Shown: one piece after another, positions 2,449 through 3,687 of the stretch | How positions within the stretch are numbered: the first letter of the stretch is position 1 | Layout of the letters: the number at the start of each line of letters is the position of its first letter | Assembly: GCA_028284765.1 (NCBI GenBank) | Contig: JANQRA010000021.1 | Coordinates: 1 to 38,421 of the forward strand | Direction of reading: 5' to 3' | From: Acidimicrobiia bacterium | GTDB taxonomy: Bacteria > Actinomycetota > Acidimicrobiia > Spongiisociales > ZC4RG35 | DNA length: 38,421 nucleotides | Notes under the pieces: generated by a model | Databases searched by the model: none | Told to the model about the DNA's origin: nothing | Seen by the model: only the letters and a program-made list of their open reading frames with translations | Made by a program: the position numbers and the translations under genes

Positions 2449-3000
2449 CTATTCGTCTTCTGAGGACTGCTCTTCGTCGGACTTCGCTCTTGCCTGTCGC
2501 GTGGGTGCCAGGACCATCGTCATCGAACCGCCTTCGATCTTCGGCGTCTGTTCCACAGTCCCGTATTCCGCCACTTCCTCGGCGAGTCGGTTCATGAGCT
2601 CACGCCCGAACTCCGGACGTTCTCTCTCACGACCCCGGAAGCGGATCGTCACTTTCACTTTGTCGTTGTCCAACAAAAAGTCCTGAGTCTTGCGACGTGT
2701 GATGTCGAAGTCGTGCTCGCCAATACGCACACGCATCCGCAGCTCTTTCACATTGGTCCGCGTTTGCTTCTTTCGCGCTTCACGCTCTTTGACCGATTGC
2801 TCGTACTTGTACCTTCCGTAGTCCATCAGCCGACAGACCGGGGGCTTGGCATTCGGTGCAACCTCGACGAGATCCAGGTCGAGTTGCTCTGCCAACCACA
2901 ACGCTTCGTTGATTTTCTTGACGCCGATTTGCTCACCGTCAGGGGCGACCACTCGGACCTCTTTTGCCCTGATCGCACCATTCACGCGCAGCTCTGGAAT
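2449..3000 (-). CDS. infC: Translation initiation factor IF-3, probable AUU start
   Basis: IF-3 binds the 30S subunit, keeps subunits apart and proofreads the start codon. The N domain (EVRVVAPDGEQIGVKKINEAL, then DLVEVAPNAKPPVCRLMDYG), basic linker and C domain (RMRVRIGEHDFDITRRKTQDFL) are all complete. A GTG at 2985 is a possible start but lies 20 nt from the ribosome binding site. An ATT at 3000-2998, five codons upstream and in frame, sits exactly 5 nt after a strong AGGAGGT and restores the usual PELRVNGAIRAKEVR beginning. An in-frame TAA two codons further up excludes longer forms. AUU starts on infC are known in E. coli, where they permit autoregulation. From AUU the protein is 183 residues. 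Confidence 0.93.
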   Translation of the reverse strand: MPELRVNGAIRAKEVRVVAPDGEQIGVKKINEALWLAEQLDLDLVEVAPNAKPPVCRLMDYGRYKYEQSVKEREARKKQTRTNVKELRMRVRIGEHDFDITRRKTQDFLLDNDKVKVTIRFRGRERERPEFGRELMNRLAEEVAEYGTVEQTPKIEGGSMTMVLAPTRQARAKSDEEQSSEDE

Positions 3001-3005
3001 TAGTT

Positions 3006-3012
3006 ACCTCCT
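3006..3012 (-). promoter_or_regulatory. infC Shine-Dalgarno site that decides the AUU start
   Basis: The minus strand reads AGGAGGT here, followed by 5 nt and then ATT. This is one of the best ribosome binding sites in the window, and its spacing fits the ATT at 3000 rather than the GTG at 2985. Its GGAGG core is complementary to the CCTCC at 3146-3142 in the leader. Confidence 0.8.
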
Positions 3013-3040
3013 AAAGAGCGACAGTTGGTTCTGTCCTTAC

Positions 3041-3071
3041 AAACAAAAAGCAGCAGATCGGAACCTGCTGC
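3041..3071 (-). terminator. Intrinsic terminator / attenuator in the infC leader
   Basis: On the minus strand a perfect 7-bp stem GCAGCAG/CTGCTGC (3071-3065 with 3056-3050) encloses an 8-nt loop and is followed by TTTTTGTTT. This is a classical Rho-independent terminator. It lies downstream of the predicted infC promoter and 29 nt upstream of the infC ribosome binding site. It can therefore end rib-operon transcripts and also attenuate infC transcription. Confidence 0.82.
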
Positions 3072-3079
3072 CAAACAAG

Positions 3080-3156
3080 CCGCGACGTGCCGTCGCGGTT
3101 GCAGTTGTTGACCTCGGCTCGCTCCTTCGGCGGCCGGGTGGGGAGGCAGCACCTCC
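3080..3156 (-). promoter_or_regulatory. Structured infC leader with two hairpins upstream of the attenuator
   Basis: Hairpin P1 pairs GGAGG (3156-3152) with CCTCC (3146-3142) around a 5-nt loop. Hairpin P2 is a perfect 8-bp stem CCGCGACG/CGTCGCGG (3098-3091 with 3087-3080) with a GCA loop. TGCTGCC at 3151-3145 in P1 is fully complementary to GGCAGCA at 3072-3066, the 5' arm of the terminator, so P1 plus terminator and an antiterminator helix are mutually exclusive. The base pairs are visible; the switching role is inferred. Confidence 0.6.
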
Positions 3157-3182
3157 GCTCTTGCTATCGATTGTTGGCGAGA

Positions 3183-3231: not shown

Positions 3232-3687
3232 TCACAGCTGAGCCAGGCTATTGGCCACCGAGACTGCCGCATCCACAGCTTCCACGCCTTTGTTGGAAGG
3301 CCCGTCGCCCGCTCGTTCGATAGCCTGAGCTATGTCATGAACTGCGAGAACGGCATTTCCAACGGGCACGCCGGTGGCAAGAGCAACATCTGACAGGCCC
3401 CGGCTCGAATCAGCCGCCACCAACTCGTAGTGGTCGGTTTCACCCTTGACTATCACGCCGATTGCCACCACAGCGTCACAGCCTGCCTCGGCGAGCTTCT
3501 TGCATGCCACTGGCAGCTCGAGGGAGCCGGGCACACGCATCACTGTCACATCAGCGGCTTTCAGTTGCTCGCAACGGGTGAGGGCTCCGTCGACGAGTTT
3601 GTCGGTAACGGTCTGATTCCAGAGAGCTGCAGCAATGCCGATGTGCAGCCGACTTGCGTCCGTATCTCCAGAGATGATCCTCGTCAT
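3232..3687 (-). CDS. ribH: 6,7-dimethyl-8-ribityllumazine synthase
   Basis: Condenses the ribitylamino-pyrimidine from the RibD branch with 3,4-dihydroxy-2-butanone 4-phosphate from RibB to give lumazine, the penultimate step of riboflavin synthesis. The 151 residues match the normal length. Visible motifs are the ligand loop VPGSLELP, GVIVKGETDHYELVA and the C-terminal PVGNAVLAVHDIAQAIERAG. The ATG at 3687 overlaps the ribBA stop as ATGA. It is the last gene of the rib cluster; the terminator at 3071-3041 lies 160 nt further on. Confidence 0.97.
   Translation of the reverse strand: MTRIISGDTDASRLHIGIAAALWNQTVTDKLVDGALTRCEQLKAADVTVMRVPGSLELPVACKKLAEAGCDAVVAIGVIVKGETDHYELVAADSSRGLSDVALATGVPVGNAVLAVHDIAQAIERAGDGPSNKGVEAVDAAVSVANSLAQL

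Follow-up and report, generated by a model that had tools for sequence, protein, structure and literature searches.

An L20-type attenuator predicted in the infC-rpmI-rplT leader of an Acidimicrobiia bacterium, a variant of the known Bacillota leader

A structured leader precedes the genes for IF3 and two ribosomal proteins on the 38,421-nucleotide stretch of Acidimicrobiia DNA analyzed here (the window), which raises the question of what this leader senses and how it would act on the genes behind it. All features described lie on the minus strand. NCBIfam models identify the downstream operon as infC (IF3; 2449-3000, TIGR00168), rpmI (ribosomal protein L35; 2245-2439, TIGR00001) and rplT (ribosomal protein L20, the proposed ligand; 1884-2234, TIGR01032), and ribH ends just upstream of the leader, at 3232. 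The true start of infC is probably ATT at 3000-2998, behind the Shine-Dalgarno sequence AGGAGG (3012-3007) that is kept in relatives, and not the GTG at 2985, five codons downstream, that was picked by ORF calling. This assignment is made because relatives show an in-frame ATC, ATT or ATA at the same place. In E. coli, a non-AUG start of infC is the known signature of translational autoregulation by IF3.

The sequence-only reading of this locus had proposed an attenuation switch, and the parts it named (promoter, helix H1, an 8-bp hairpin, a terminator, and complementarity between H1 and the terminator) are all present. The predicted promoter (3210-3183) consists of TTGGAA, a 16-nt spacer and TATCAT, with a TG extension (TGG) before the -10 box. 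The position of this box is conserved in 82 relatives, where it precedes an invariant AAG by a spacing that hardly varies (mostly 18-21 nt), with a best-match score of 4.7 against 2.3 in shuffles. Given this spacing, transcription is expected to start near 3176, ahead of the whole element, and a start downstream of the terminator is unlikely. The AAG itself (3162-3160) provides an AA dimer 5' of H1 as a candidate L20 contact. H1 (3156-3142; GGAGG-TGCTG-CCTCC) would serve as the anti-antiterminator, with its loop and 3' arm as the switching strand; the 3' arm, CCTCC in the window, is usually CUUCC in relatives. A further pairing of this arm with the infC Shine-Dalgarno sequence, also put forward by the sequence-only reading, gained no particular support. 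Helix H2 (3139-3111) pairs ACCCGGCCGC (3139-3130) with GCG-A-GCC-G-A-GGT (3122-3111), leaving two single-base bulges, and the CC/GG pairs at its foot form, together with AAG, a candidate L20 site. The 8-bp spacer hairpin (3098-3080), equivalent to H3, is followed by the intrinsic terminator H4 (3072-3041), which reads GGCAGCAGGT-tccg-ATCTGCTGCT; its stem (3072-3049) has 10 pairs, one of them G-U, and runs into TTTTTGTTTG. This terminator is where it had been placed, apart from its 5' end, which is 3072 and had been put one nucleotide off at 3071; H2, AAG and the probable ATT start had been omitted altogether. TGCTGCC in H1 (3151-3145) and GGCAGCA in the terminator's 5' arm (3072-3066) are perfect complements, and they make up the two strands of a putative antiterminator. 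The fold of the leader beats 200 of 200 dinucleotide shuffles (z = -3.4).

Conservation was assessed on infC leaders gathered from the family and the order; the publicly recorded relatives are mostly named Acidimicrobiia. An element of the form AAG-n-H1-C-ACC-H2-(optional hairpin)-terminator could be parsed in 82 of 86 order-level leaders; in two of the other four a stretch of N spans the leader, and one is cut off by the end of its contig. In L042 and L167, N letters, from an assembly gap or from masking, replace the structured region just before infC. AAG is present in all 82 parsed leaders and CC/GG at the H2 foot in at least 77 of them, as well as in 29/29 sequences of the curated alignment. 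The consensus of H2 is ACCCGGCCRC with GYG-M-GCCG-M-GGU, including two single-base bulges. In the 29-sequence alignment, 98.5% of the cells are paired and both-sided changes occur at 7 of 16 pairs. None of 500 shuffles matches this pairing, and slid structures drop to 37-50% paired, a control biased toward the structure, which was read from these same sequences; the both-sided changes are independent of that. H1 and H2 are thus conserved and covarying. The window and its close relatives (L001-L015) carry CCCC for CCC between H1 and H2 (3162-3139 in the window) and AAGAGC for AAGC before H1, a correlated two-sided shift of the junction.

The same comparison bears on two simpler accounts of the locus. 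With ribH ending just upstream, the hairpins might be due to chance and the terminator might be an ordinary one of ribH, whose transcripts it could indeed stop as well. This is very unlikely, as a promoter separates ribH from the element, H1 and H2 are kept where the upstream gene differs (e.g. L035, L185 and L209), and the pairing between H1 and the terminator covaries. Alternatively, a ribosome translating an upstream frame could mediate attenuation, since a reading frame that begins with GTG at 3152 spans the terminator and ends with TAA at 3002-3000. That is less credible still: the GTG is part of H1 and is not conserved (most relatives have GGAAGC), nor is the frame, and the H2 loop varies among relatives from 4 to 62 nt without keeping to multiples of three, which excludes conserved coding. 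The 8-bp hairpin, counted as part of the switch in the sequence-only reading, proved to be specific to the lineage (18/23 leaders of the own family compared with 3/29 in three other families) and is therefore optional, as is H3 of Firmicutes L20 leaders, which is found in about 75% of them (PMC6097659).

The proposal that H1 alternates with an H1/terminator antiterminator turns on whether 3151-3145 and 3072-3066 covary, and relatives show that both sides change in several lineages. Most leaders keep this complementarity between the terminator's 5' arm and the H1 loop with its 3' arm, and among the co-changing words are GCGGACC/GGTCCGC (L035), GGTCGCT/AGCGACC (L131), GCCGCTG/CAGCGGC (L016 and L017), CAGCCTGCT/AGCAGGCTG (L023) and CCTGCT/AGCAGG (L009 and L012). 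Of 63 leaders, 22 have complementary runs of at least 7; swapping between families yields such runs in 10.7% of cases and shuffling the arms in 0.5%, and own duplexes of H1 with the terminator are stronger than permuted ones (3 of 20000). In their best fold without the terminator, 46/63 leaders pair H1 with the terminator arm, compared to 31% if H1 is permuted with its stem kept. A cross-family chimera test gave modest support (p about 0.01 to 0.02, relatedness uncorrected), because most H1 loops share GCTGC. All of these tests (complementarity, swap, permutation, fold and chimera) ignore kinship, and since much of the complementarity is the common word GCTGC/GCAGC, relatedness inflates them. 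Some leaders of family f2 have a complementarity of 3-4 nt only. In silico, the window's antiterminator is favored over H1 by 6 kcal/mol shortly before the terminator is completed; with the terminator complete, the two states are at -58.1 (antiterminator) and -57.1 kcal/mol (H1 plus terminator). With folds so close in energy, a modest binding energy on H1-H2 could tip the switch.

About three quarters of the order-level leaders have a terminator at the same place. In the remaining quarter or so (genus g3, family f6 and some of f2) no canonical terminator was found, and the read-out there must therefore differ. In L025-L030 (genus g3) and L159-L164 (family f6), H1-H2 is conserved and infC is not preceded by a canonical intrinsic terminator.

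The Bacillota L20 leader has this same layout, AAG-H1-C-ACC-H2-optional H3-terminator, so the "different architecture" ascribed to this locus by the sequence-only reading was not borne out. Its suggestion of an actinobacterial counterpart of the L20 leader held up, with a shared layout and reciprocal sub-threshold model matches. The B. subtilis L20 leader (RF00558) has the same operon, infC-rpmI-rplT, the same position and helix order, complementarity between the H1 loop and the terminator's 5' arm, and the same logic of transcription attenuation. PMC6097659 places the L20 site of that leader at the H1-H2 junction, describes H3 as optional and not involved in binding, and has H4 form as terminator upon L20 binding. 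For L20 leaders, PMC7247131 names as determinants an AA dimer together with two consecutive G-C pairs. Their counterparts here, matched by inspection and not by structure comparison, are the invariant AAG and the CC/GG of the H2 foot. The leaders differ in H2, here a GC-rich helix of 10 bp that is near-continuous, has two single-base bulges and carries a conserved sequence of its own, ACCCGGCC...GCCGMGGU. L20 also autoregulates the same genes through rRNA-like determinants in E. coli (pseudoknot plus hairpin before rpmI) and in the Deltaproteobacteria L20 motif (PMC7247131, PMC10931766), on scaffolds other than the one found here. The E. coli control acts on translation and leaves infC uncontrolled, whereas the element described here would be a transcription attenuator ahead of infC.

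At the level of models, RF00558, whose consensus has CCCGC in the H1 loop and GCGGG in the terminator arm, finds no match on the window at its gathering threshold and none at E <= 10. A scan of the window with all of Rfam returned nothing at gathering thresholds and chance families only at E <= 10. The best-scoring Acidimicrobiia leader, L035, reaches 36.2 bits with RF00558 (cut-off 58.7; E = 0.0014 over all Rfam); RF00558 matches the Bacillota leaders of the sample below its cut-off. In the reverse direction we used a covariance model, R1, built from 29 leaders. The window and its nearest relatives were left out of it, as their CCCC (not CCC) after H1 shifts the H1 register, and the window is therefore an independent test. 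R1 scores 49.8 bits on the window (3163-3109; E = 3.9e-11), its only match at E <= 0.01 in that genome, and it finds the Bacillota leaders L046, L051, L059, L068, L071, L077 and L084 exactly at the RF00558 positions. As the window fails RF00558, we class it as a variant rather than place it in that Rfam family. By these comparisons, the leader is predicted to be a genuine L20-type attenuator, one that varies a known kind and occurs in a phylum whose annotation does not list it. Across the phylum, R1 has matches in 43 of 296 genomes (E <= 0.01), and of those inspected most adjoin infC or rpmI. The matches L178, L192 and L193 were rejected as chance, since they do not adjoin infC or rpmI; L178 and L192 lie in protein-coding sequence. 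The narrower, exact pattern AAGNGGAG...CTCCCACC occurs in 58/296 genomes, many times beside infC among the infC genes listed, and contributes infC-adjacent cases beyond those of R1. Judged by these matches, the element is present in many actinobacterial lineages, Streptomyces-like genomes included.

Which protein would be sensed is indicated by genomes in which the operon is split. In five genomes of two families (G304, G284, G366, G380 and G194) the element stands directly before rpmI-rplT, with infC on another contig, and no element was found at the relocated infC of these five. That the element stays with rpmI-rplT and not with infC points to L20 (or L35) rather than IF3. A leader that answers IF3, or translation initiation capacity, would suit an operon with infC as the first gene and a non-AUG start, but it is improbable given that infC moved off without the element, that the invariant positions match the L20 determinants (PMC7247131), and that the non-AUG start (ATT in the window, ATC, ATT or ATA among relatives) is a separate, additional, translational control. 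Leaderless infC genes apart from rpmI-rplT, mostly adjoining rpmG, were observed in two actinobacterial families (L203-L208; L209 and L212-L215), and their readable starts appear to be TTG or ATG, not ATT or ATC. Linkage alone cannot separate L20 from L35, as rpmI adjoins rplT in every locus inspected, even those that lack infC. We know of no L35-binding leader. In B. subtilis, the effector of the element with the same layout is L20, according to PMC6097659, which cites Choonee 2007, so that L35, by itself or jointly with L20, is an unlikely ligand. Linkage and the Bacillus precedent together favor L20, and we hold it very probable, on comparative grounds, that the infC-rpmI-rplT leader is an autogenous transcription attenuator sensed by this protein.

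The mechanism that we propose follows that of Choonee 2007 as given in PMC6097659 and PMC10931766, and its inferred parts are the binding of L20, the direction of regulation and termination in vivo. As long as newly made ribosomes consume the available L20, H1 would lend its loop and 3' arm to a pairing with the terminator's 5' arm, and transcription would read through into the operon. If free L20 builds up, it would bind the H1-H2 junction at the AA dimer and the CC/GG at the H2 foot, and H1 would be held. The 5' arm of the terminator would then be freed, the terminator would form, and transcription would stop before infC.

The leader may also account for an RNA that is catalogued differently. 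RF02830 (Scr1601) coincides with the infC leader in Streptomyces-like genomes (L185, L194 and L196, e.g. L196:1470-1676) with 159-184 bits, ending at the T-run of the terminator. It is catalogued as an sRNA and not as a leader, and its sequence is too divergent to match the window, where RF02830 has no match at the gathering threshold or at E <= 10. PMC8388888 cites Vockenhuber et al. for the report of Scr1601 as an sRNA, and its own finding was that the S. ambofaciens homolog lies in a UTR. The simplest reading of these positions is that Scr1601 would be the attenuated infC leader. In M. tuberculosis, the infC 5' UTR is long and abundant, with more reads than the gene itself (PMC3207917), an abundance that fits attenuation and is compatible with it, but not proof. 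Sequence similarity between the infA and infC 5' UTRs of M. tuberculosis has also been described (PMC3207917).

Taken further, the Bacillota and actinobacterial L20 leaders might be one ancient element that predates the split of the phyla and was kept with rpmI-rplT when infC moved, with Scr1601 as its attenuated product in Streptomyces and the same L20 site serving a different read-out in the terminator-less g3 and f6; we offer this as a tentative view that falls somewhat short of an even chance. If it is true, Scr1601 is an RNA long mistaken for an independent sRNA. The Bacillus-type L20 RNA has been described as restricted to Firmicutes (PMC6097659), and the present results would extend this switch to many actinobacterial lineages, including Streptomyces-like genomes. 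An L20-type switch would explain the long infC leaders of actinobacteria and would allow an Rfam family to be widened. It also suggests that an RNA entered in the catalogs as a Streptomyces sRNA is a terminated leader. For the question of which protein is sensed, a natural test is offered by the genomes in which infC and the leader have been separated.
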